Source: Brevibacterium casei CIP 102111 (GTDB lineage Bacteria > Actinomycetota > Actinomycetes > Actinomycetales > Brevibacteriaceae). Taken from it: DNA of 64,000 nt. This document shows, in pieces, positions 2,939 to 54,031 of this stretch. Both the position numbers and the translations under genes were made by a program. Each line of letters starts with the position of its first letter. The stretch's first letter is position 1. The notes below the pieces were generated by a model. That model was not told where the DNA came from and ran no database searches. It saw only the letters and a list, made by a program, of their open reading frames with translations. The stretch lies in NCBI RefSeq assembly GCF_900169275.1, contig NZ_FXZC01000004.1, positions 310,001 through 374,000 of the forward strand, given 5' to 3'.

Positions 2939-4021
2939 ATGACGAACTCAGGGACCACGGACGACCGGACGGCCGCCTCGGCGAACGACCGCCTCGGCGA
3001 GGACACGAACGAGCCCCAGGACACGGACGGCACCGGCAGGACCGGCAGGACCGGTCGCCCGGCGACGAGTCGGGGACCGCTCTTCAGCTGGCAGCTGGGA
3101 CTCGCGACCCTCGCGGTGGCGGGCCTCCTTGTCGCCTCCCTGCTCACCGGGGTCTACGACATCTTCGGCGCCGCCGACGGGGCGGAGATGTTCCAGATCA
3201 CCCGGGTCCCGCGGACCGTCGCGCTCGTCCTCGCCGGCGCGGCGATGGCGATGTGCGGGCTCGTCATGCAGCTGCTCACGCAGAACCGATTCGTCGAGCC
3301 GACGACGACGGGCACGACGGAATGGGCGGGCCTCGGGCTCATGCTCACCGTCATCATCTACCCCGAGGCGACGATCGTGCAGCGGATGATCGGCGCGATC
3401 CTCGCCGCCTTCATCGGCACCCTCGTCTTCTTCCTCTTCCTCCGCCGCGTCTCCCTGAAGTCCTCGCTCATCGTCCCCATCGTCGGGATCATGCTCGGCG
3501 CCGTCGTCGGAGCGGTCTCGACCTTCATCGCTGTGTCCACGGACATGCTCCAGAGCCTCGGGATCTGGTTCGCCGGCAGCTTCACCTCGATCCTGCGCGG
3601 ACAGTACGAGGTCCTCTGGATCGTCGCGATCGTCGTCGTCGCCGTGTTCATCACCGCCGACCGATTCACCGTCGCGGGCCTGGGCAAGGAGATCTCGACG
3701 AGCGTCGGACTCAAGTACAACCAGATCATCCTCATCGGCACCGTCCTCGTGGCCATTGCCACCGGCGTCGTCACCGTCGTCGTCGGCAACCTCCCCTTCC
3801 TCGGGCTCATCGTGCCCAACATCGTCTCGATGATGCGCGGCGACGACCTGCGCTCGAACCTGCCGTGGGTGTGCCTGCTCGGGATCGCGATCGTCACCGT
3901 CTGCGACCTCATCGGCCGGCTCATCATCGCCCCCTTCGAGATCCCCGTCTCCCTCATCCTCGGCATCGTCGGGGCCGCCGTCTTCATCGTCCTGCTGCTG
4001 CGGCAGCGGAGGAGGAGCTGA
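2939..4021 (+). CDS. FecCD-family siderophore permease 1
   Basis: A 360-residue inner-membrane permease of the BtuC/FecCD family. A hydrophilic, Asp/Thr/Gly-rich N-terminal tail of about 45 residues precedes roughly nine to ten membrane helices. Family landmarks include PRTVALVLAGAAMAMCGLVMQ near the front, a TTGTTEWAGLG segment, and NLPFLGLIVPNIVSMMRG, the cytoplasmic coupling region contacting the ATPase. It pairs with the next permease to form the import channel. The ATG is 84 nt after the lipoprotein stop. Resemblance is to YclN/FatD/CeuB-type subunits. Confidence 0.88.
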   Translation: MTNSGTTDDRTAASANDRLGEDTNEPQDTDGTGRTGRTGRPATSRGPLFSWQLGLATLAVAGLLVASLLTGVYDIFGAADGAEMFQITRVPRTVALVLAGAAMAMCGLVMQLLTQNRFVEPTTTGTTEWAGLGLMLTVIIYPEATIVQRMIGAILAAFIGTLVFFLFLRRVSLKSSLIVPIVGIMLGAVVGAVSTFIAVSTDMLQSLGIWFAGSFTSILRGQYEVLWIVAIVVVAVFITADRFTVAGLGKEISTSVGLKYNQIILIGTVLVAIATGVVTVVVGNLPFLGLIVPNIVSMMRGDDLRSNLPWVCLLGIAIVTVCDLIGRLIIAPFEIPVSLILGIVGAAVFIVLLLRQRRRS

Positions 4022-4022
4022 C

Positions 4023-5108
4023 ATGCGCAGCATGGACGCCGACGACCGCGGTGCGGAACCGCGCACTTCCGAGACCACCCCGGCAGCCGCCTCGGCGAGG
4101 ACGACCGGACGCCATTCGGGGGCACTGACGACGGCTGCGGCCCGTCGACGGTACTGGACGATCATGGGCGTGCTCGCGGCGGCCGCGCTCGGGATCGCCT
4201 TCGGACTCCTCGCGTGGGACAACCCGCTGCCGATCACGGACGAAGGCTTCTGGCTCATCGCGGGCCTGCGCGGACGCAGCCTCGTCGTCCTCATCATCGT
4301 CGCCCTGTGCCAGGCGTTCGCGACGGTCGCGTTCCAGACGGTGACGAACAACCGGATCATCACGCCCTCGATCATGGGCTTCGAGTCGCTCTACGTTGCG
4401 ATCCAGACGGCGACGATGTACTTCTTCGGGGTGACCGCACTCGTCGAGCTGCGCGGGGTGCTGCCCTTCACGATGCAGCTGGTCGCGATGATCGGGCTCT
4501 CGCTCGCCCTCTACGGCTGGCTGCTCTCGGGGAAGTACGCGAACGTCGAGGTCATGCTCCTCGTCGGCATCGTCATCGGCGGCGGACTCGGAGCGGTGGC
4601 GACGTTCATGCAGCGCACGCTCACCCCGAGCGAGTTCGACGTCCTCTCCGCCCGCCTCTTCGGCTCGATCGCGAACTCCGATGCGACCTACCTGCCGGTG
4701 GCGATCCCCCTCTGCCTCATCGCATGTGCGGCCATCTACCTGTCCGCGCCGCGGCTCAACGTGCTCGCGCTGGGCAAGGACGTGACCGGCAACCTCGGGC
4801 TCAGCCACAGGGCCGCGACGATCACAATCCTCTTCTTCGTCTCGATCCTCATGGCGGTGTCGGTGTCGATGATCGGGCCGATGATCTTCCTCGGCTTCCT
4901 CGTCGCGATGCTCTCCTACCAGTTCTCCGACACCTACGACCATCGGTACGTGCTGCCGATGGCGGGCCTGCTCGGGTTCGTCATCCTCGGCGGGGCGTAC
5001 TTCATCCTCAAGAACATCTTCTACGCCGAAGGCGTGGTCTCCATCATCATCGAAGTCATCGGCGGAGGCGTGTTCCTCTTCGTCATCATGCGGAAGGGTC
5101 GACTGTGA
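4023..5108 (+). CDS. FecCD-family siderophore permease 2
   Basis: A 361-residue second FecCD permease (YclO/FatC/CeuC type) with a polar N-terminal tail of about 40 residues and the same multi-helix core. Markers are FATVAFQTVTNNRIITPSIMG, the LGKDVTGNLGLSH loop and MIGPMIFLGFLVAMLSYQ. It starts one base after the preceding stop, and AGGAGGAG at the end of the first permease serves as its SD. Its own stop overlaps the GTG of the ATPase gene, so the three cytoplasmic-facing subunits are translationally coupled. Confidence 0.88.
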   Translation: MRSMDADDRGAEPRTSETTPAAASARTTGRHSGALTTAAARRRYWTIMGVLAAAALGIAFGLLAWDNPLPITDEGFWLIAGLRGRSLVVLIIVALCQAFATVAFQTVTNNRIITPSIMGFESLYVAIQTATMYFFGVTALVELRGVLPFTMQLVAMIGLSLALYGWLLSGKYANVEVMLLVGIVIGGGLGAVATFMQRTLTPSEFDVLSARLFGSIANSDATYLPVAIPLCLIACAAIYLSAPRLNVLALGKDVTGNLGLSHRAATITILFFVSILMAVSVSMIGPMIFLGFLVAMLSYQFSDTYDHRYVLPMAGLLGFVILGGAYFILKNIFYAEGVVSIIIEVIGGGVFLFVIMRKGRL

Positions 5109-18289: not shown

Positions 18290-18324
18290 GAATGCGGACA
18301 ATTTCATACGCCGTTAAGACATGA

Positions 18325-18440
18325 CGTGGGAGAGCTGCCCGGTCTCCGCGATCGCTCCTCGGACACCCTCCGAGCCTGCGACCCGGACCGCAGTGCAGCG
18401 CCGTAGGTGCAATTCCCTCCCCGGGAAACTCTCAGGCCCA
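18325..18440 (+). promoter_or_regulatory. Glycine riboswitch aptamer
   Basis: The region shows the conserved glycine-aptamer strings: GTGGGAGAG at the 5' side, GCGCCGTAGGTGCAA in the core, and the GGAAACTCTCAGG close (18423-18435), ending about 145 nt before gcvP. A clear second tandem aptamer is not visible, so it looks like a singlet. Glycine binding would be expected to switch the glycine cleavage operon on. Confidence 0.85.
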
Positions 18441-18520
18441 GTACCACCGATTGCAGGCATATCTGGAGGACCGCTTCCTCGCAGCATCCCGTGCCGCGAG
18501 CTCGTGATCCGACAGATCGG

Positions 18521-32162: not shown

Positions 32163-34550
32163 ATGGCCAACGAACTCGCAGCATCGACGAGCCCCTACCT
32201 CCGCGCGCACGCCGAGAACCCCGTCGACTGGCGGATGTGGACGAAGGAGTCCCTCGCCGAGGCGGCCGACCGCGACCTCCCCCTCCTCATCTCCATCGGC
32301 TACTCCACGTGCCACTGGTGCCACGTCATGGCCCACGAATCCTTCGAGGATCCCCAGGTCGCCGCCCTCATCAACGACCGCTTCGTCCCGATCAAGATCG
32401 ACCGGGAGGAGCTGCCCGACATCGACGCCCACTACATGAACGCCCTCCAGGCGATGCGCGGGCAGGGCGGCTGGCCGATGACGATCTTCGCGACCCCGAC
32501 CGGCAGCCCCTTCTACGCCGGCACGTACTTCCCGCCGACCCCGCGCGGCAACCTTCCCTCCTTCACCCAGGTCCTCGACGCCGTGTCCCAGACCTGGACG
32601 GACCGCCGCGCCGAGGTGACCGAGATGTCCCAGCGCATGGACCGGGGGCTTGCCGAGATGGCCACCGCCGTCACCGACGCCCTCCCCGCCGAGGCGGTCG
32701 CCGAGTCCCTGACGGCCGATGAGCTCGACGCGGCCGCCGCTGCGCTCCTCGACTCCTACGACCCCGCGTGGGGTGGCTTCGGCAGCGCCCCGAAGTTCCC
32801 GCCGTCGATGAACCTCCTCCAACTCCTCTCCACTTTCGTCCGCTTGGGCGGGACCACCTCGGCGGGGGAGGGATCCGATGACGGAGACCCCGTCGCTGAG
32901 GCGAAGCGGACAGGACGGCTGAACGTCCTCGGCGCGGACGGCCACCTCACCGGTGAGCTCGTCCTCGACTGCCTCGTCGCCGTCCGGTCGACGTTCGCCC
33001 ACATCGCCGCGGGCGGAATGCGCGACCAGATCCGCGGCGGCATCGCCCGCTACAGCGTCGACCGGCAGTGGTTCGTCCCGCACTTCGAGAAGATGCTCTA
33101 CGACAACGCCCTTTACCTGCGCGCTGCCGTCGCGTGGGCCAAGGTCGAGCGCAGCCTCGACCCGACCTCGAAGTGGCTCGCCCTCGCCGAACGCGAGATC
33201 GACGACACCGCCGAGTTCATGCTCGCCGACCTCTCCGACGGCGACCGCTTCATCGCCGCCCTTGACGCGGACTCGTTGGGCGCCGACGGGACGCTCGAGG
33301 AGGGGGCCGCCTACGTCGTCACGCCGGAGGAGTTCGCACCGGTCGACGGTGTCGGGGTGCTCCAGCTCGTCGATTCTCCGGCCGCCGCCGAGCTGCCGGG
33401 CCAGGTCATCGGGGCACCGCGGATCGTCGACTGGCTCGGAATAGACGACGTGCCCTTCGACGCCGATCACCCCGCGCCGTGGGCGACCGAGGGCACTGAG
33501 AGGCAGCGGTTGGCGCTGCGGGACCTCCTCGATGAGCGGCCTCGTCCGGCGCGGGATGAGAAGACGATCACCGAATGGAATGCCCTGGCCATCACGGCCC
33601 TCTCCGAGGCGGCCCTCTACCGTCACCCGGATCAACGCGCCTCCGTGTGGGGGAGTGCCGCTGCGTTCTTCTGGGAGGAGATGCACAATCGGTTCGTCAC
33701 CGGAGTCGGAGACATCGACGCGGCCCCAGACGAGGTCGAAGTTCCGGCCGTTCGCGACCTCGACGTCCGGCGCAGCTTCACCGGCAACGATCCCGGGCCC
33801 GGTGCCGCTGGCTTGGCCGACTGGGCGCAAATGCTCGTCGCCGGCCTCACCGTTCTCCAGTTGCGCAACGCCGGGCTGGCCGATGGTGCGGGCGAGCATA
33901 CGCGGCCGCAGGTGAGCTTCGACGATGGCGCGCTCTCGCCGGCGGGGCTGACCGAGATGGCCGCGGTCATGCTCGAGAGGTTCACCTCGCGGAACGAGGA
34001 CGGCACTCTCACAGTCGTCGACTCGGCCCCCGATGACCTCATCGGCGTCCGCGGCTCCGATCCGGTCGACAACGCCCTGCCCTCAGCGCGGGCAGCGGCC
34101 GCCGAGGCGATGCTCCTCCTCGGCGAACTCGGAGTCGAGGGCAGTGCTGGGTCGGAGGGGCGCCTCGGCGACGGTGATCGAGACGATGCGGTCACCGGGC
34201 GGACCGACGGGCACCAGTCTCTGACGACGGGGACGATCCTCGAGGTGCGCGACCGCCTGCTCGGGGTCTATCGGGCGCTCGCCCAGCGGGCACCGCGCGG
34301 GTGCGGGCACGCGCTCTGGCAGGCCGAACGGGCGCTCGCCCCGGTCCGCGTCGCGAGTCGCGACGATGCTCTGCGCACTCTCGCGTCGAAGCATCCCGCG
34401 GTCACGGTGCTCACCGATTCGACGGGGGTGCCGGATGAGAACGGGGAAGAGGTCGCCGTCCCCGAGGGCGCGGCGATCGTCTGCCGGGGATCGGCATGCT
34501 CGCTGCCGGTGAGGACGGCCGAGGAGCTGGCCAAGCTGCTGGACGGATGA
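32163..34550 (+). CDS. Thioredoxin-domain protein, YyaL/SSP411 (DUF255) family
   Basis: A 795-residue protein with an N-terminal thioredoxin-like DUF255 domain (about 1-165) and a long alpha/alpha-barrel (six-hairpin glycosidase-like) C-terminal part. The redox motif is C50-HW-C53 in YSTCHWCHVMAHESFED; GGWPMTIFATPTGSPFYAGTYFPP is also conserved. The family is widespread, but its substrate is unknown; a role as redox-linked sugar epimerase or protein-modifying enzyme has been proposed only by fold. Length is above the common 660-700, mainly from low-complexity loops. Start: ATG with GGAG 3-6 nt upstream. Confidence 0.88.
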   Translation: MANELAASTSPYLRAHAENPVDWRMWTKESLAEAADRDLPLLISIGYSTCHWCHVMAHESFEDPQVAALINDRFVPIKIDREELPDIDAHYMNALQAMRGQGGWPMTIFATPTGSPFYAGTYFPPTPRGNLPSFTQVLDAVSQTWTDRRAEVTEMSQRMDRGLAEMATAVTDALPAEAVAESLTADELDAAAAALLDSYDPAWGGFGSAPKFPPSMNLLQLLSTFVRLGGTTSAGEGSDDGDPVAEAKRTGRLNVLGADGHLTGELVLDCLVAVRSTFAHIAAGGMRDQIRGGIARYSVDRQWFVPHFEKMLYDNALYLRAAVAWAKVERSLDPTSKWLALAEREIDDTAEFMLADLSDGDRFIAALDADSLGADGTLEEGAAYVVTPEEFAPVDGVGVLQLVDSPAAAELPGQVIGAPRIVDWLGIDDVPFDADHPAPWATEGTERQRLALRDLLDERPRPARDEKTITEWNALAITALSEAALYRHPDQRASVWGSAAAFFWEEMHNRFVTGVGDIDAAPDEVEVPAVRDLDVRRSFTGNDPGPGAAGLADWAQMLVAGLTVLQLRNAGLADGAGEHTRPQVSFDDGALSPAGLTEMAAVMLERFTSRNEDGTLTVVDSAPDDLIGVRGSDPVDNALPSARAAAAEAMLLLGELGVEGSAGSEGRLGDGDRDDAVTGRTDGHQSLTTGTILEVRDRLLGVYRALAQRAPRGCGHALWQAERALAPVRVASRDDALRTLASKHPAVTVLTDSTGVPDENGEEVAVPEGAAIVCRGSACSLPVRTAEELAKLLDG

Positions 34551-34670
34551 GATCGGGAATCGCTTCGGCGCCAGGGTCAGTCGCCTCGGTGGCCGGGGGA
34601 TCCCACCCAGCAGAGGGCGGTCCCCGGTCGCTGAAACCCTTAGTGAAGACCCCTCATCCATGTGATTCGC

Positions 34671-34716
34671 TTTTCGCCCGATCGCTCGGTTCAAGAACCG
34701 ACTGATCGGGCGAAAA
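34671..34716. repeat. Palindromic repeat element, family P2 distant copy
   Basis: 22-bp arms (34671-34692, 34695-34716) with two mismatches and a 2-nt loop, followed by GTGACTCAGAC. The right arm plus flank (34695-34727) is 32/33 identical to 9852-9884. It lies between convergent YyaL and bacteriocin-operon genes and would terminate both. Confidence 0.8.
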
Positions 34717-34744
34717 GTGACTCAGACTGGCCTGCTGGCGTCGA

Positions 34745-35419
34745 TCACAACGTGTTGTCTGCCGAATCGCACAGGTGGCTGTCGCTCAGATGCAGAATCC
34801 TGTCGCAGCGCTCGGCGACCCGTTCACTGTGGGTGGCGATGATCAGGCTCGTGCCCATGCTCTTCACGATCTCGAAGACCCCGAGGATGCGATCTTCGGA
34901 TTCTGGGTCCAGCGAGCCGGTGGGCTCGTCGGCAAGGATGACTCTGGGCCGTTTCACCATGGCCCGTGCGATGGCGACTCGCTGAGCTTCGCCGCCGGAG
35001 AGCTGCTTGACCCGCTTGCGTGCAAGTGAGCCGATCCCCAGGCGTTCGAGGCACTCCTGAGATCGTTCCTTCGCCGTTCGTCGGTCCGGGCAGCCGAACA
35101 TCACATTGCGCAGAGCACTGCGATCGTCGAGGAGATCGAACCTCTGTGTCACATAGCCGATCGATGACCAGCGAAGGCGCGACAGACGAATCGCATCCCG
35201 GTCGACGGTTTCACCCTCGAACGTGTATGTTCCCGTATACCCCGTGTCGAGACCCGCGATGATGCGCAGCAGCGACGTCTTGCCGGAGCCGCTTCTGCCC
35301 ATGATCGCGACGGCGCTCGGAGGCCGGCCGAGACGGAAGTCGAGATCGTCGAAGAGTACTCGAGTCTCCCCGTTCGGTTCTTTGATGCGCTTGCCCACTG
35401 ACAGCAGTTCCACGGTCAT
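34745..35419 (-). CDS. ABC ATPase of a lactococcin-972-type bacteriocin locus
   Basis: A 224-residue ABC ATPase of the MacB/LolD-like class. Walker A GRSGSGKTS is at 41-49, signature LSGGEAQR at 140-147, Walker B ILADEPTGSLD at 161-171 and the H-loop at IIATHS. Proteins of this length form the nucleotide-binding part of exporters or immunity pumps beside lactococcin-972 peptides. Its ATG overlaps the stop of the preceding half-permease (ATGA). It is last in the four-gene operon. Composition is less GC-rich than in flanking genes, suggesting acquisition. Confidence 0.85.
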   Translation of the reverse strand: MTVELLSVGKRIKEPNGETRVLFDDLDFRLGRPPSAVAIMGRSGSGKTSLLRIIAGLDTGYTGTYTFEGETVDRDAIRLSRLRWSSIGYVTQRFDLLDDRSALRNVMFGCPDRRTAKERSQECLERLGIGSLARKRVKQLSGGEAQRVAIARAMVKRPRVILADEPTGSLDPESEDRILGVFEIVKSMGTSLIIATHSERVAERCDRILHLSDSHLCDSADNTL

Positions 35420-36699
35420 GATTCCTCTCCTTCCAGAAGATGCCTGCGTATGTTGTTTGTGCGCAGCAGAGCCTGTAGTGCACTGTCAATGACGAGACAG
35501 GCCACCGCGATGAGCGCGACCGGTGCCAATGCGGCGAGATTCATCTGCGGAACGGACAGAAGAAGAAGCGCGAACGCGATCAGCAGACATGCGTATTCGA
35601 CCGCAGTCACCGTGATGATCCGGGTCAGTGTCACGCGGCTGCTGACGCCGAGCAGATGCTCGATCTTCTGGATGCGCCAACGTCGCCTGGCGACGTGTGC
35701 GCCGATGATTCCGTTCGACAGTCCCACGCAGATCATCAGCAGCACCGCGATACCGGTGAGCAGGGCCGTGTTGTCCTGGATGAGTTGCCTCGTCAACTGG
35801 AACTGCACCAGGTACGTCGGTGCGTTGAGAACGGTGAAGTCGTCGAATCCTGCACGCGTGGAGACCTCTCCAAGATGACGCAGCACCTCGTCCGAATCGG
35901 CCTCGGTGTCGACTGCAAGGTCACCGGCGATCATCGCGAATGCGAGTATCCCGAAGAAGTACTGACTTGCTTCGGTCGTCCGCTCCATCACTGGCGGATA
36001 CGGAACGATGACTGCATCATCGAGGAACGTATTGAGTTCCCCCTGGTAGTAGATCGACGAATCGGGGGGAAGGAAACCACTGACGACGAGTGAGAAGTCC
36101 TCGAAGTAGTAGCTGGCCTCCACGACGTCGCCGACGGCGTAGATCCCCGAGTAGTCCGCGCCGAGAATCACGGGAATCGTCCGCGTCGAATAGTCGACCT
36201 CCGACCAGTCGATTCCTGGACCGTCCACCGCCTCGAGTGAATAGAAGTCGAAAGCCCGCTCATTCATCTGAAATGATCTGACGTCAGTCAGGAGCTGTCC
36301 GGTCTCGTCATCGACATACTCGCCGCCAGCGTCCAAGCCACCCTCGAGCGAGGCGTCGAATTCGGGTCCTCCTCGGAAGTCAGGGATTGAAACGGGCTGA
36401 TCGAACACTGAGAGGAACGGCATCTCGGTACTGCCGTTGAGCTCGTTGTAGAAACGAGCGACAGTATCAAGCCGCTCCCCTGATTCGCGGAACGAGGAGA
36501 ACGCATCAGGGTCGGCCAGAGTATCGGTGACCCCGTACGTGTCGACTTCGGCATCGCTTGAGAAGCTTCGCGAGATCTCGCTCTTGCTGATTCCGGCGAA
36601 CGCCACCACTTGGTAGATCAACGTCAGCACGAGCCCGAGAATGATCATCTTCATCACAACGAAGACCCAGTTCTGTCTGAGATCGCGAACTATCTCCAT
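35416..36699 (-). CDS. FtsX/MacB-like half-permease B of the bacteriocin operon
   Basis: A 427-residue membrane protein: one N-terminal helix (about 13-36), a large extracytoplasmic domain of about 240 residues rich in Tyr/Asp/Phe, then three helices (about 310-335, 365-388, 392-410). This 1+3 helix layout is that of MacB/FtsX permeases. Lactococcin-972 loci normally carry one integral membrane protein near 650-750 residues with two such halves; this and the upstream gene together give 736. It overlaps the upstream half by 10 nt and the ATPase by 4 nt. Confidence 0.75.
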   Translation of the reverse strand: MEIVRDLRQNWVFVVMKMIILGLVLTLIYQVVAFAGISKSEISRSFSSDAEVDTYGVTDTLADPDAFSSFRESGERLDTVARFYNELNGSTEMPFLSVFDQPVSIPDFRGGPEFDASLEGGLDAGGEYVDDETGQLLTDVRSFQMNERAFDFYSLEAVDGPGIDWSEVDYSTRTIPVILGADYSGIYAVGDVVEASYYFEDFSLVVSGFLPPDSSIYYQGELNTFLDDAVIVPYPPVMERTTEASQYFFGILAFAMIAGDLAVDTEADSDEVLRHLGEVSTRAGFDDFTVLNAPTYLVQFQLTRQLIQDNTALLTGIAVLLMICVGLSNGIIGAHVARRRWRIQKIEHLLGVSSRVTLTRIITVTAVEYACLLIAFALLLLSVPQMNLAALAPVALIAVACLVIDSALQALLRTNNIRRHLLEGEES

Positions 36700-37619
36700 T
36701 TCCGCATCCTTAGGTATTCGATGGACGACCCGCCAGTGAACGCCAGAACCGCAATGACCACGGGCATAACCACTGTGATTCCCGAGCTGCTTCGGAGTTC
36801 AGTGAACAAGTGCTGTCCGGCGGTGAGGCTGAGTCCGGCTCCCACGGCCGCGGTCAACAGGAGTGCCATGAGAGCAACCGTGAACATCCGCAGCGGGCTG
36901 CGCCCGACCAGGAACCCGACCCGAAAGGTCCGCCGCGAGAGCTGACTGGCGAGGATCCCGGTGAACACCGCGCAGATTCCCACAACAGCGACAACGACGA
37001 AGTCGACGACCGGCGAGACGAGGTCAACCCTGGCTCGGCGATTGACACTGGCATCACTCCTCGTCACCTTGTCAGCCGGCAGCGCTGCTGCCTGTTCCTC
37101 CATTGCAGGCCCGTCGAGAATGACTCCACTCTGAAGATCCGGAGAGTCCACGATGTCGCGATCGGCGACGATGACGTCATCGGCCAGGAGACTGCGACTG
37201 TCTCGACCCAGTCGACCGATCACCTCGTATCCGACTCCGTCGAGTTCGTAGACGGACACCCCGTTCTCGCGTGTCACAGGCACCTGATCGCCGACCAGTG
37301 CCACGTGCTGCTCACCACGGCGAAAGCTGCGCCCCTCGTGGATAGGAAGCTCGAGAAGATCGAGGCGATCGCTGTCGACGGCGCGAATTGCTCCGCCATC
37401 GTCGAGGTCGCGGAAGATGGAATAGTGCCCCAAGGATTCGTCAAGGAGGGTACGTGCCTCTTGGGCCGTGCCCGAGAAGGCAACCATGTGCTGCGTGAGC
37501 AGATGGTTGCCCTCTCGGGTGATTTCGGACTGCCGGGTGTCATAGATCCGGACCCCCAGGAGAGCCACCGACATGACGACGAACAACAGTCCCACAATCA
37601 GATACTGGTAGGACCTCAT
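36690..37619 (-). CDS. FtsX/MacB-like half-permease A of the bacteriocin operon
   Basis: A 309-residue protein with the same plan as half B: a membrane helix at residues 5-24, an extracytoplasmic domain of about 180 residues, and three C-terminal helices (about 205-230, 245-265, 275-295). ATG 37619 is selected because it overlaps the peptide gene stop (ATGA) and removes an unlikely polar extension. A SQLSRRTFRVGFLVGRSP loop between helices is the likely coupling site to the ATPase. Alone it would be half a transporter, so pairing with half B is expected. Confidence 0.75.
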   Translation of the reverse strand: MRSYQYLIVGLLFVVMSVALLGVRIYDTRQSEITREGNHLLTQHMVAFSGTAQEARTLLDESLGHYSIFRDLDDGGAIRAVDSDRLDLLELPIHEGRSFRRGEQHVALVGDQVPVTRENGVSVYELDGVGYEVIGRLGRDSRSLLADDVIVADRDIVDSPDLQSGVILDGPAMEEQAAALPADKVTRSDASVNRRARVDLVSPVVDFVVVAVVGICAVFTGILASQLSRRTFRVGFLVGRSPLRMFTVALMALLLTAAVGAGLSLTAGQHLFTELRSSSGITVVMPVVIAVLAFTGGSSIEYLRMRKWR

Positions 37620-37972
37620 CGTCCGTAGTAGGTGCGAGCCTTGCCGTAGCCGTTGCTCTTGGCATTTGGATTGAACGGAACCCACTTAGTCACCGCTTGT
37701 GATTTTCCTGTCCCGTATTTCCTGCCCGAGCTTGTAATGACACCCTTGTTCGGCCAGTAGTGTTCCAGACGGGCAGTCGTATAGTGTTTCACGCCCTTCC
37801 ACGTCGTCCATCCATGCGACCGCTTATTGGTCGTGCCCTTGATTGTCTTCTCTTCGGACCAGCCTCCATACACTTGAGGCTGTTGTTCACTTGCAGACAC
37901 AGCCGTTGCGGATGCGACAGAGACCACTACGGCAATCGCAACGCCATTGGCAGGTTTCATGAGGAAACTCAT
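37616..37972 (-). CDS. Lactococcin-972-family bacteriocin precursor (candidate)
   Basis: A 118-residue exported peptide. ATG 37972 follows AAAGGATGAA; the first 28 residues are a classical signal peptide (MKPANGVAIAVVVSVASATA, cleaved near VSA). The mature peptide of about 90 residues has no cysteine, is basic and aromatic, and follows the lactococcin-972 layout: an early GGW, a central HYTT block, then SSGRKYGTGKSQAV and a terminal KARTYYG. Lactococcin 972 itself binds lipid II and blocks septum formation; activity here is inference. Length is somewhat above the family average. It heads the operon, coupled to the half-permease genes. Confidence 0.72.
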   Translation of the reverse strand: MSFLMKPANGVAIAVVVSVASATAVSASEQQPQVYGGWSEEKTIKGTTNKRSHGWTTWKGVKHYTTARLEHYWPNKGVITSSGRKYGTGKSQAVTKWVPFNPNAKSNGYGKARTYYGR

Positions 37973-38473
37973 TTCATCCTTTTGATTGATTCTTCTACTA
38001 TTGTCAACTGATATGCATGTGTAGTAGAGCACTTCTTCCTCGCCGCGAAGCAAGTGAGGCGCACAGCAGCGAGAGCCACGATAGCGGGGATGACGAGTTT
38101 CGTCTTCATGCTTCAGAGGTAGATTTTCGGTTTGATTCTTGGCGGCGGTGATGATAGCTCTGCGATGCTTGGTCAAGATTTATGGACGCATTTATCACGC
38201 CGATCTTCGCAGAGGAAATTATGTGTACGTGTCGTTCATCTCTGGAGTCGCGTGACCAATTTGAGAACACCCCGACGCCGCGATTGAACTGCCTGTCACG
38301 TGCACCCGAAAGCGGCGCTGCGCGATCGAAGCTGCAATTGGGGTCGGAAGCCGTCGGCTTCGAGCAACGATCGCCTCGGTGGCCTGGGTCTCGTCTTCGG
38401 TGCGGTCGCCGCGGCGAATACCTTGCTCATCTACGTCGGACCGTTCGCGCGCTGAACGATGAGCTTCACGAGG
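37973..38473. other. AT-richer gene-poor stretch upstream of the bacteriocin operon
   Basis: No supported gene. On the minus strand, a TTGACA string (38002-38007) and an inverted pair CTACTA (37995-38000) / TAGTAG (38022-38027) lie 23-56 bp before the peptide start and are promoter or operator candidates. ATATGCAT (38011-38018) is a further palindrome. Beyond 38150 the sequence reads like decayed coding DNA: short ORFs on the plus strand (38182 onward) are Arg/Ser-rich with no start signal. Confidence 0.4.
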
Positions 38474-38773
38474 CTAAGCGTTCGTTCCCTCGCAGATGAT
38501 CGACGTCTGGTTGTCGACTTCGCAGTGAATTGGCGCGCCGTGGTATGCGACGTCCTCGATCGCGACGCCAGTAGGGAGCCCGGTCGCTACAGCGACACGA
38601 CATTGCTCCAATTCGTCCGCGACGACGTGGCAGGATTCGGCCCTTTGCTGTGTGCGGCTCAACTCTGCCGTGTCTCGAGTATCGACCACTGTGCAGCCGA
38701 AGAATGCAGAGCCTCGCACGAACGATTCGCACGCGTCGTTGATCGAATCATGGATGGGGCGCGACACCTGCAC
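38474..38773 (-). CDS. Hypothetical protein, uncertain
   Basis: A 99-residue frame starting at GTG 38773 with GC-biased third positions and balanced composition, which overlapping frames lack. It contains five cysteines and the string VAIEDVAYHGAPIHCEVDNQ. No family is recognised, no convincing SD is seen, and a hairpin lies between it and the upstream PheRS-like gene. It may be a small real gene, or a remnant of a longer one. Confidence 0.35.
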   Translation of the reverse strand: MQVSRPIHDSINDACESFVRGSAFFGCTVVDTRDTAELSRTQQRAESCHVVADELEQCRVAVATGLPTGVAIEDVAYHGAPIHCEVDNQTSIICEGTNA

Positions 38774-38778
38774 AATCC

Positions 38779-38809
38779 AGAGGAACCGGGTCGAGGTCGC
38801 GGTTCCTCT
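38779..38809 (-). terminator. Hairpin after the PheRS-like gene
   Basis: AGAGGAACCG (38779-38788) and CGGTTCCTCT (38800-38809) are perfect 10-bp arms with an 11-nt loop, starting one base after the PheRS-like stop codon. Confidence 0.6.
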
Positions 38810-38810
38810 G

Positions 38811-39983
38811 TCAGATCAGCTCCATCACCGGCCCTTCGTGGATTGCGGTGTAGATCCGATTGCGGATGGCGTTGGCCTCGTCCGAGGTCAGTGTGCGGTC
38901 GAGGGGGCGCAGGATGAGTCGCACCAGTACGTTGGCCTGCCCATCGCGAGTGCGCAGCCGGTCACGGGCCGACTGAGGCAGGTCATGGTGGAGGGTGCGG
39001 GAGAGAACCGTGACGGATTCGACGACTTCAGCATCCTCGCCGAGGCGGTCGCGAACGCGATCGCCGAGAGTCTCTTCATCCTCGTCCTCGGCCACGACCA
39101 CCGAGAGATCTCGTCGGGCGGGCGGGAGCGTTGAGACGTGCTTCCAGGGGTGGAGATTGCGCATCTGCTCCGCGATCCGCGGTTCGCTCGCGCGCAGGCA
39201 GCGGATGTCCGGGATTCCTTTGCGGAGCATGAGGGCGCGCTCGAGCCCCAGGCCGAGCGCGAGACCTGACCATCCTGTGGGATCGAGTCCCGAACCGTGG
39301 AGGACGTCCGGGTGGATCCGGCCGCATTCGGCGAGTTCAAGCCACGTGCCGTCATGGAGGACGTCGATCTGCAGGCCGCCAGTCGTATATGGATGGGCTG
39401 CGTCGGTGACCCGCCATTGGGCTCCCGGGAGCACCACTTCGACGAGGGTGCTGACCATGGTGAGTAAGTCGTCGTGGCTTGTCGACGGTGAGTTGCGCAC
39501 GCGCCACAGATCGACCTGATGCGGCTCGCCGACGTGCGAGCGGTCGACCGCGTCTCGGCGGTAGACCATGCCGGGGGCAACGATGAGTTCGTCGACTGTG
39601 GGTGGGAGTGTGCGAGCAGTGGTCTCGTCGCTGTCGGGACGCGAATATCGATCCAGTGCGGTGGGGATCATGGCGCTTGTGTGGCTGCGCAGCATCACGG
39701 TGGAGCTGACATACCGGGTGTAGCGGCGGGCACGGGTGACATCGTCTGCTCGATAGCCCAGGCGGTCGTAGTTCTCGGCAACCGGCACGAGGGGTGAAGC
39801 GCGGACGAGGTTCGTTGTCGATTGCCAGACCGTGTGAAGTGCTTCGACGATCTCATTGAGGAGTGTCTGCATCGCGTGCGGACCTTGGTCCGGATCGGTG
39901 AGGTCACGCAGGCTCAGTGCGCGGGAAAGCTGATCAGTGCTGAGGTAGGAATCGCGGATGGCATGTGCGGTCAGGTGTGACAT
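38811..39983 (-). CDS. Single-chain phenylalanyl-tRNA synthetase-like protein
   Basis: A 390-residue class II synthetase homologue. The PheS-type catalytic core is intact: LRSHTS (98-103) of motif 2, VYRRDAVDRSHVGEPHQV (140-157), and motif 3 GLGLERALMLRKGIPDIR (244-261). A C-terminal FDX-ACB anticodon-binding-like domain (288-380, RRDLSVVV...) follows, which in bacteria normally sits at the end of PheT. This is the mitochondrial-PheRS plan, not the bacterial alpha2beta2 enzyme. No PheT, coiled-coil N-terminus or editing domain is present. It could be a functional second PheRS, or an aminoacyl-transfer enzyme of unknown role. The SD (GGAG, 39995-39992) lies inside a hairpin. Confidence 0.8.
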   Translation of the reverse strand: MSHLTAHAIRDSYLSTDQLSRALSLRDLTDPDQGPHAMQTLLNEIVEALHTVWQSTTNLVRASPLVPVAENYDRLGYRADDVTRARRYTRYVSSTVMLRSHTSAMIPTALDRYSRPDSDETTARTLPPTVDELIVAPGMVYRRDAVDRSHVGEPHQVDLWRVRNSPSTSHDDLLTMVSTLVEVVLPGAQWRVTDAAHPYTTGGLQIDVLHDGTWLELAECGRIHPDVLHGSGLDPTGWSGLALGLGLERALMLRKGIPDIRCLRASEPRIAEQMRNLHPWKHVSTLPPARRDLSVVVAEDEDEETLGDRVRDRLGEDAEVVESVTVLSRTLHHDLPQSARDRLRTRDGQANVLVRLILRPLDRTLTSDEANAIRNRIYTAIHEGPVMELI

Positions 39984-40155: not shown

Positions 40156-41853
40156 TCACTCGACCAGGCGCAGACCCCGGTAGCGGTTGAGGGCGGCCGC
40201 CATCTCCTGCGGGCGCGGCCTCGCCACGTGCCCGGGATGCCTGCGATGGCCGGTGAGCCCGTCGATGCCCTGCGCGTCGAGCATCTCCTCGATCTCCGCC
40301 AGCGCCTCGACGACCGAGGTGCGACCGTCGAAGATCTTCGCCATGTACTCCAGGGCCTCGGCCACGCCGTTCGTCTGCTCGGGATCGACGAGCTGGGAGA
40401 CCGCGGCGAGATCGATGAAGGACTTGCCGAACTGGATGAGGTCGAGGCCCTTCGCCTTCGCTCCCTTGGTCTTCGCCGCCGGTTTGAGCGCATCGGCGGT
40501 GGGGATCCTGGCAGGCGGATCGCCGAAGACGTCGTCACCGGACTCGGCGTCAGCGACGAGATCGGCGGCATCGACCCCTACGAGCTCGTGCGCCTTCTCC
40601 GTGACGTTGCTCGGCACATAGGCGTCCATCGCAATGACGAGGTCGGCGACCTCGAAGAATGCGCTCGACCCACCGGCGACGAGCACCGTCGAGACGCCCC
40701 GTTCGGCGAGCAGCGGGCGGACGCGTTCGACGAAGGGTGTGATCGGCTCCCGGTTCGCAGGAATGAGGGCACGCATCCGCTCGTCGCGGATCATGAAGTT
40801 CGTCGCCGAGGTGTCCTCGTCGATGAGCAGCGTCTGCGCAGACGCCTCGACGGCCTCGACGAGGTTGGCCGCCTGCGAGGTCGAGCCGCTCGCGTTCGTC
40901 GTCGAGAAGAATCTCGTGTCAGTGCCGGATGGCAGATTGTTGATGAACGGCGAGATGTCGTCACCGGTCACCGCGCGGCCGTCTTCGGCCCGGATCGCCG
41001 TCGCGGTCGGCTCGGTGATGACCCATTCGCGCCCGTCGCCGGCCACGTGCGGGTAGACGCCGCGTTCGAGCGCGCGCAGGATCGTCGACTTGCCGTGGTA
41101 GCCGCCGCCGACGATGACGGTGACACCGCGGGGGATCGCCATGCCTGTGACCCTGCGACCGCTGGAGAGGTCGAAGGTCCGCTCGAGGCTCTCGGGACTG
41201 CGGAAGGGCACGGCCACCTCGGCGTCCATCGGACGATCCGAGTCGCCCGACCGGCGGGGCAGGATCGCACCGTTGCCGACGAATCCGAGCAGATCCTCCT
41301 CGCCGAGGCGGCCCTGCAGCTCAGTCTGATCGCGCAGCAGCTGCACGTGGTCGGCCAGCGCCTCGCCGTCGACGTTGGCGAAGAGGAACATCTGCCGGGC
41401 GAGTTCGACGACGTCGCGGGTGACGGTGTCGGCGGCCTGGTGCCCGAGGATGCGCCGCCCGCGGGCGGGCAGGTTGACGAGCAGACGCGCCTCGAACCCG
41501 GCGTCGTCGATGATGACGTTCGTCCGCTCGAGGACCTCCTGGCCGGGATGGCCGAGGTTGATCGCGCGCCCATGCTGCTTCCGCAGCACGGCATTGCCGG
41601 CCCGCAGGAGGAAGTCGGAGACTCCGATCCGGTCGAGGCGATCGGTCGTGAGGTCGGCCGGGAACCCGGCGTCGGCGCGGTCGACGCGCACCCGCACCTT
41701 CGAGGGGGAGGCGAAGGGATCGACCTGGACCCGATCGACGATGAGCGTGACCGGTCCGAACCGGTACTGCCCGGTGATCTGCTTGTAGTTGCCGTAGCTT
41801 CTGCCGTCGAGACCGTGGAGCGTCTCAGCGAGCGGGGACCGTTGAGGACTCAT
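40156..41853 (-). CDS. P-loop ATPase of the PF09818 ABC-ATPase family
   Basis: A 565-residue soluble protein. It has an N-terminal domain (about 1-235, YKQITGQYRFG...), then Walker A GGGYHGKST (249-257), a UvrA-like long inserted signature region, and Walker B AQTLLIDEDTSATNFM. The PF09818 family was once annotated as an isomerase; it includes MRB1590 of trypanosome RNA editing, and an RNA-binding role for bacterial members is plausible but unproven. The C-terminal part is Lys/Ala-rich then helical. It lies upstream of the PheRS-like gene on the same strand (172-nt gap). Confidence 0.82.
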   Translation of the reverse strand: MSPQRSPLAETLHGLDGRSYGNYKQITGQYRFGPVTLIVDRVQVDPFASPSKVRVRVDRADAGFPADLTTDRLDRIGVSDFLLRAGNAVLRKQHGRAINLGHPGQEVLERTNVIIDDAGFEARLLVNLPARGRRILGHQAADTVTRDVVELARQMFLFANVDGEALADHVQLLRDQTELQGRLGEEDLLGFVGNGAILPRRSGDSDRPMDAEVAVPFRSPESLERTFDLSSGRRVTGMAIPRGVTVIVGGGYHGKSTILRALERGVYPHVAGDGREWVITEPTATAIRAEDGRAVTGDDISPFINNLPSGTDTRFFSTTNASGSTSQAANLVEAVEASAQTLLIDEDTSATNFMIRDERMRALIPANREPITPFVERVRPLLAERGVSTVLVAGGSSAFFEVADLVIAMDAYVPSNVTEKAHELVGVDAADLVADAESGDDVFGDPPARIPTADALKPAAKTKGAKAKGLDLIQFGKSFIDLAAVSQLVDPEQTNGVAEALEYMAKIFDGRTSVVEALAEIEEMLDAQGIDGLTGHRRHPGHVARPRPQEMAAALNRYRGLRLVE

Positions 41854-52038: not shown

Positions 52039-53935
<1,897 letters not shown>

Positions 53936-54031
53936 CAACGACTATCACAGTGTGCGCGTCGCCACAAAACAGCGCGTCTCGTCGACCGCCCGTCGACCGT
54001 TCGGCGACCACCTCGTCGACCGCTGAACGTC

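Follow-up and report, generated by a model that had tools for sequence, protein, structure and literature searches.

The window analysed here, a 64,000-nt stretch of Brevibacterium casei CIP 102111 (contig NZ_FXZC01000004.1, positions 310,001 to 374,000), carries on its minus strand, from 37972 to 34745, an operon of four genes that overlap by 4, 10 and 4 nt. The first gene (37616..37972) encodes the 118-aa precursor of a putatively secreted, bacteriocin-like peptide with 0 cysteine residues, and AAAAGG stands a short way 5' of its ATG at 37972, as seen by eye. It is followed by permease A (36690..37619; 309 aa), a MacB/FtsX-like half-permease with 1+3 hydrophobic segments and the smaller outer domain, by permease B (35416..36699; 427 aa), a MacB/FtsX-like half-permease with the larger outer domain, and by an ATP-binding cassette (ABC) ATPase of the MacB/LolD/lactococcin 972 type (34745..35419; 224 aa).

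A first-pass annotation, made from the sequence alone, had described four overlapping minus-strand genes in DNA less GC-rich than its surroundings, and both points were confirmed, the two permeases together comprising 736 aa. GC content was 59.4% in the operon, lower than in the window as a whole (67.9%) and in the two genes that flank the segment (70.6% and 64.6%). Lower values were obtained for 7 of 304 sampled stretches of equal length, all 7 of which overlap the operon.

The operon lies within a segment of 4,260 nt (34551..38810) between two convergent flanking genes, a yyaL-like gene (stop at 34550) and a PheRS-like gene (stop at 38811). In genome G042, these two genes are adjacent, with 59 nt between them and no insert. 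The segment, 4,260 nt here versus 59 nt in G042, is therefore an insertion at a site that is empty in a relative, the evidence being this one empty site. The operons of genomes G053 and G038 are sited elsewhere, neither flanking gene being present in the 12-kb stretches around them. Three other open reading frames inside or reaching into the insert had no Pfam match, and therefore no modification enzyme was seen. Directly downstream of the operon, before the convergent gene, lies a strong palindrome of 48 nt (34670..34717), which is possibly a two-way terminator and was absent from the output of the terminator scan. The 64-nt stretch containing it (34662-34725) reached -38.7 kcal/mol (z -7.7), and none of 200 shuffled versions was equally stable.

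Permease A, permease B and the ATPase were observed in this fixed order at no fewer than 13 loci, the window included, in both Actinomycetota and Bacillota. The peptide neighbour is retained at these homologous loci, 11 of the 13 carrying an intact peptide gene. Since the four genes keep their order in other genomes, the operon is beyond a chance arrangement.

Among Actinomycetota, a homologous peptide together with A, B and the ATPase was found in genomes G053, G270, G138 and G252 and in Kocuria polaris, and G038 carries the operon with an in-frame stop within the peptide gene. The Bacillota plasmid loci belong to Paenibacillus polymyxa M1 and YT9, Sarcina sp. JB2 (p6 and p1), Priestia megaterium and Vagococcus fluvialis. 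The M1 and YT9 loci are near-copies, as judged by peptide, B and ATPase, and both were counted among the 13; Priestia A overruns the start of its record, and its first 166 codons were seen. Plasmids of 11-37 kb carry 3 of the 13 loci. Sarcina p6 is an 11.3-kb plasmid with six annotated genes, four of which form the operon, and the Vagococcus plasmid with the operon measures 11.1 kb. The Sarcina strain carries the operon again on plasmid p1 (L057, 3649-6771), there with the peptide gene mostly deleted and the transporter genes intact.

The operon was present in 3 of 57 genomes of the genus, and credible peptide matches were obtained in 5 of 396 genomes of the order, the own genome being included in both counts. 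In the search of the order, 11 genomes matched, but 6 of them, with E values of 0.003-0.009, were set aside as chance hits. G138 also gave a second, weak match (L021) that had no operon adjoining. Window B was matched in 5 of 72,556 plasmid records. Profile A7 recovered the own genome alone among 396 genomes of the phylum, and profile A2 the own genome alone among 394 genomes of the class, with few candidates scored per genome in either search. A viral origin was considered and rejected, as the peptide and B profiles had no relatives in viral contigs and one Bacillota B had none in phages.

A further plasmid locus was noted in Terrisporobacter (pTVTCOM3, L060, 5.6 kb; 3102-4776), where a peptide-like gene (product ending ...VFYGK) and a B-like permease gene adjoin a VanZ-family gene. 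It has neither A nor the ATPase, its peptide reached 21% in hhalign, and it was not counted as a member; it may be a decayed or minimal relative.

The N-terminus of the window peptide consists of a hydrophobic signal-like stretch followed by a cleavage-like site between AVSA and SE, both recognised by eye. A GGWSE motif and a conserved C-terminal region of about 80 residues follow (KRSHGWTTWKG.HYTTARLE...SGRK.G...A.TKW...GKA.TYYGR). In its relatives, GGWSE is followed by a variable spacer, which is missing from the window peptide. An alignment of 9 peptides contained 15 invariant columns, including the start methionine, and in 10 peptides the conserved C-terminal core was free of cysteine. When compared with the actinobacterial profile in hhalign (profile-profile), three Bacillota peptides matched at 97.8-98.7%, and the Vagococcus peptide more weakly, at 70.6%, with a score of 29.3 compared to at most 14.6 in 50 shuffles.

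The family peptides were not named by Pfam or NCBIfam (five peptides searched) or by PADLOC (window peptide alone), and the sole weak Pfam match was RPS31 (E 0.12), far under its cut-off. A sequence search of the PDB with peptide profile A7 gave 0 matches, and six accessions or locus tags of family members were not found in the literature searched. The profile comparisons thus suggest that the peptide defines a separate, apparently unnamed family in two bacterial phyla.

For the permeases, the 1+3 layout was clear by hydropathy in A of the window, G053 and G038 and in B of G053 and G038. The window's B had 1+2 segments over the threshold of 1.5, and A of G138 had 1+1. The earlier description of an exported, cysteine-free peptide encoded together with two permeases of the 1+3 type and an ABC ATPase was thus supported, with the signal seen by eye, and the layout assigned to both membrane proteins held for A of the window but for B only through its homologues. 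The Pfam cut-off for MacB_PCD (27) was exceeded by A of Vagococcus (38.6 bits) and B of Priestia (36.1 bits), other matches remaining below it. At E<=1, MacB_PCD was matched by 7 of 13 aligned B proteins and by 4 of 11 aligned A proteins; FtsX was likewise matched by 4 of the 11 A proteins.

A and B share an FtsX-type membrane region, over which hhalign relates the two at 84% (60 columns). Profile searches of the PDB returned, among unrelated proteins, MacB (E 0.029) and LolF (0.73) for B, and LolF (1.6), FtsX (2.8) and LolC (7.3-7.5) for A. Placement of A and B in the MacB/FtsX (type VII) superfamily is supported through their homologues.

Two permease genes were present at all 13 loci (for Priestia A, on its first 166 codons), and the two-gene state is therefore normal for this family and implies no fused ancestor. 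According to the MacB review (PMC5985334), type VII permeases occur as homodimers, heterodimers and fusions, so the presence of two genes is not in itself remarkable. The first-pass annotation had treated A and B as the halves of a single, split protein, a view that the survey contradicts, as no fused form was encountered. A fused ancestor split in this lineage was accordingly rejected as a description of the operon, with no fused homologue at the 13 loci.

The annotation had further assigned the operon to the lactococcin 972 type. The window peptide gave no match to PF09683/TIGR01653 at E<=10, a search in which the HMMER filters drop most weak matches, and the same was true of four further family peptides. 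Window A and B, like two Bacillota A/B pairs, had no match to TIGR01654/DUF1430, and genome G000 gave 0 matches to PF09683 and 0 to TIGR01654. Lactococcin 972 loci were gathered from the same order, where PF09683 was matched in 8 of 198 genomes, always above its cut-off, and TIGR01654 in 7 of 198, never above it.

With full and trimmed profiles, in local and global mode, hhalign gave at most 0.9% between the peptide family and the lactococcin 972 profile, and 0.4% when Vagococcus was added. In contrast, when each of seven lactococcin 972 cores was left out in turn as a control, six were recovered at 92-97% and one at 51.9%; the control set was drawn from 9 PF09683 matches, omitting that of G175 (a half-profile match) and a second peptide of G110. 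In comparison with six fused permeases of the lactococcin 972 type, half of which come from PF09683 loci, A reached 8.8% and B 0.7%, while five of six leave-one-out controls lay at 94.7-97.9% and G105 at 0.2%.

A lactococcin 972 locus was also observed in the genus of the window (L041; G004 contig C11, 280-3799, minus strand), with a PF09683 peptide (47 bits) and the order peptide, larger permease, ATPase, smaller membrane protein. The larger permease matched TIGR01654 positions 328-649 with 104 bits, under the cut-off of 189, and reached 96.5% against the fused set; the smaller gave no profile match and 10.4%. Given this 10.4% and the 0.2% of G105, the control works well for the peptide and for B, less so for A. 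With these controls and no Pfam or NCBIfam match, membership in the lactococcin 972 family was not supported, and of the earlier assignment a plausible bacteriocin-immunity unit is left. The annotation had also considered the divided permease unusual for actinobacteria. However, a 2017 paper (PMC5719810) describes six Brevibacterium strains in which lactococcin-972-related peptides are accompanied by two transmembrane proteins, and L041 has two membrane proteins as well. A two-gene permease is therefore not new, and the new element is the peptide family.

The ATPase yielded less uniform results. TIGR03608 was the best NCBIfam family for all four family ATPases tested (166-224 bits, the window's own at 166), in each case under the cut-off of 254.85, below which three true lactococcin 972 ATPases also fell (218-244 bits). 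Its lead over the next family was 9-23 bits here compared to 59-74 bits in the three true lactococcin 972 loci. In a tree of 35 rows (7 of 42 having been removed as long or near-copies), the family was sister to the lactococcin 972 ATPases with support of 97/95, in agreement with the tree of all 42 rows. Alternatives placing the family (approximately unbiased, AU, test p 0.070) or the lactococcin 972 rows (0.074) with MacB-type rows were not rejected.

A tree of 59 rows, with 10 family rows, 5 lactococcin 972 rows and BceA-like rows labelled from gene layout, placed both groups inside an 18-row clade (96/91) together with BceA-like and one MacB-like ATPase. There, the sister relation was neither recovered nor rejected (AU p 0.356 for one clade); 7 family rows clustered alone and 3 Bacillota rows joined the BceA-like ATPases. 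On these sequences, shared pump ancestry with lactococcin 972 is possible, not established.

These comparisons bear on the best-surviving alternative, that the operon is a true but very diverged lactococcin 972 member, with the same beta-sandwich fold and lipid II as target, its sequence similarity lost and its permease unfused. The shared gene logic, the first place of TIGR03608 and the sister position obtained with few comparators speak for it, as does the order of the fused lactococcin-972-type permeases, in which a small-domain half precedes a large-domain half as A precedes B. PMC12345188 likewise calls mediterrocin a member of the lactococcin 972 family, with a similar predicted fold at 18% identity. 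Against these points stand the missing profile matches, the near-zero profile-profile values beside well-recovered controls, the narrow TIGR03608 margin and the loss of the sister relation with 59 rows, and this alternative is regarded as unlikely.

The preferred reading is that the four genes form a mobile operon for a bacteriocin and immunity to it, the peptide belonging to a family of its own. It is judged probable, though by no means certain; antibacterial activity, Sec export, target, heterodimer and protection mechanism are all inferred. The peptide would be exported by the general Sec route with removal of its signal peptide, yielding a basic, aromatic-rich, unmodified product of roughly 90 residues that may act on neighbouring bacteria on the outer side of the membrane, possibly on a cell-wall precursor. 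A and B would form a heterodimer which, with two copies of the ATPase, makes up a type VII (MacB/LolCDE-like) ABC complex, and ATP-driven movement of the outer domains could detach the peptide from its target at the surface of the producing cell.

The best evidence for protection rather than export comes from two of the 13 loci, where the peptide gene is broken by the stop in G038 and by the deletion in Sarcina p1, and the transporter genes are intact. Between Sarcina p1 and p6, these genes differ mainly at silent sites, with ratios of nonsynonymous to synonymous differences (pN/pS) of 0.26 for A, 0.13 for B and 0.11 for the ATPase, values that include any time before the loss of the peptide. 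The persistence of an intact transporter beside a broken peptide at two loci therefore favours immunity over export. Similar cases are described in PMC11796350, where strains without functional streptococcin B peptide retain scbBC (scb in D39). For lactococcin 972, whose plasmid pBL1 is 11 kb, PMC4055356 gives minimum inhibitory concentrations of 800-1600 AU/ml (arbitrary units) with the cluster versus 12.5 AU/ml without it, which by analogy would be consistent with a self-protection role here.

The same intact transporter genes argue against a complex whose role is to free the peptide from the membrane or export it, in the manner of LolCDE or AS-48EFGH, as does the Sec-type signal, seen by eye, that the peptide itself bears. 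LolCDE is among the type VII relatives, and AS-48H appears in the MacB review (PMC5985334) with export of AS-48 as a possible function, but such a role is considered improbable for the operon. Least credible of all is a non-antibacterial peptide serving as signal or partner of a cell-wall-regulating FtsEX-like complex, since the FtsX type of the permeases is set against a sporadic distribution, small plasmids and loss of the peptide while the transporter is kept.

Several results nevertheless count against a bacteriocin-immunity operon of this kind. The window's own A and B had no Pfam match. The AlphaFold model of B, with a predicted local distance difference test score (pLDDT) of 34.7, and the AlphaFold2 model of the peptide, with 40.4 from an alignment of 2 sequences, were unusable. 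The argument from broken peptide genes depends on two loci, one of which is a single stop codon in one assembly.

Beyond the operon, further features were recorded. The PheRS-like gene (window 38811-39983) is single-chain, with tRNA-synt_2d and a weak FDX-ACB match, and was found in 6 of 57 genomes of the genus. It adjoins a gene for a P-loop protein of the PF09818 ABC_ATPase family (40159-41853; 394 bits), which also occurs in the matching region of G042 (L069). A glycine riboswitch (18317-18456, plus strand), located 5' of a 984-aa open reading frame, and a thiamine pyrophosphate (TPP) riboswitch (53826-53936, minus strand) both scored above the Rfam gathering threshold. A plasmid of Anaerococcus prevotii (L159, 1-9389) carries, one after another, several genes for class III lanthipeptides, one for a radical SAM protein and others for BceAB-like transporters.

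The operon adds a peptide family that Pfam, NCBIfam and PADLOC do not recognise and, if active, would represent a genetically simple antibacterial system of four genes. According to PMC11796350, the function of the ABC genes has been verified at none of the lactococcin 972 loci, and the A/B permease pair is a convenient system in which to ask how ABC proteins of the lactococcin 972 type work. A more far-reaching proposal is that these peptides make up a previously unnamed family of antibacterial proteins, secreted and unmodified, with a fold and target of their own, carried on plasmids and islands across Actinomycetota and Bacillota and always accompanied by a heterodimeric type VII pump, whose peptide specificity evolved independently of lactococcin 972 or as its sister. 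This proposal is put forward tentatively, its chances being judged slightly less than even.

Among known systems, lactococcin 972 loci share with this operon the order of a peptide gene, whose product here is predicted to be secreted and unmodified, ahead of permease and ABC ATPase genes, an occurrence on small plasmids, and peptide-less loci that keep the transporter genes. They differ in that the peptide and permeases of this family have no detectable sequence similarity to theirs and that its permease is always encoded by two genes. The Brevibacterium operons of PMC5719810 and L041 likewise combine a peptide, two transmembrane proteins and an ATPase in one operon. L041, however, has a PF09683 peptide and another gene order, and the likeness to the operons of PMC5719810 is drawn from gene layout.

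LolCDE, MacB and YbbAP of E. coli, type VII ABC systems covered in PMC5985334, resemble the proposed complex in their outer domain and 1+3 layout, and LolCE is a heterodimer of separate units, as A and B would be. In contrast, the partner here would be a secreted peptide, with no lipoprotein role expected, and the profile similarity is seen through homologues only. BceAB-type transporters have ATPases in the same 18-row clade and, according to the same review, protect from wall-active peptides; they differ from the A/B pair in having one ten-helix permease.

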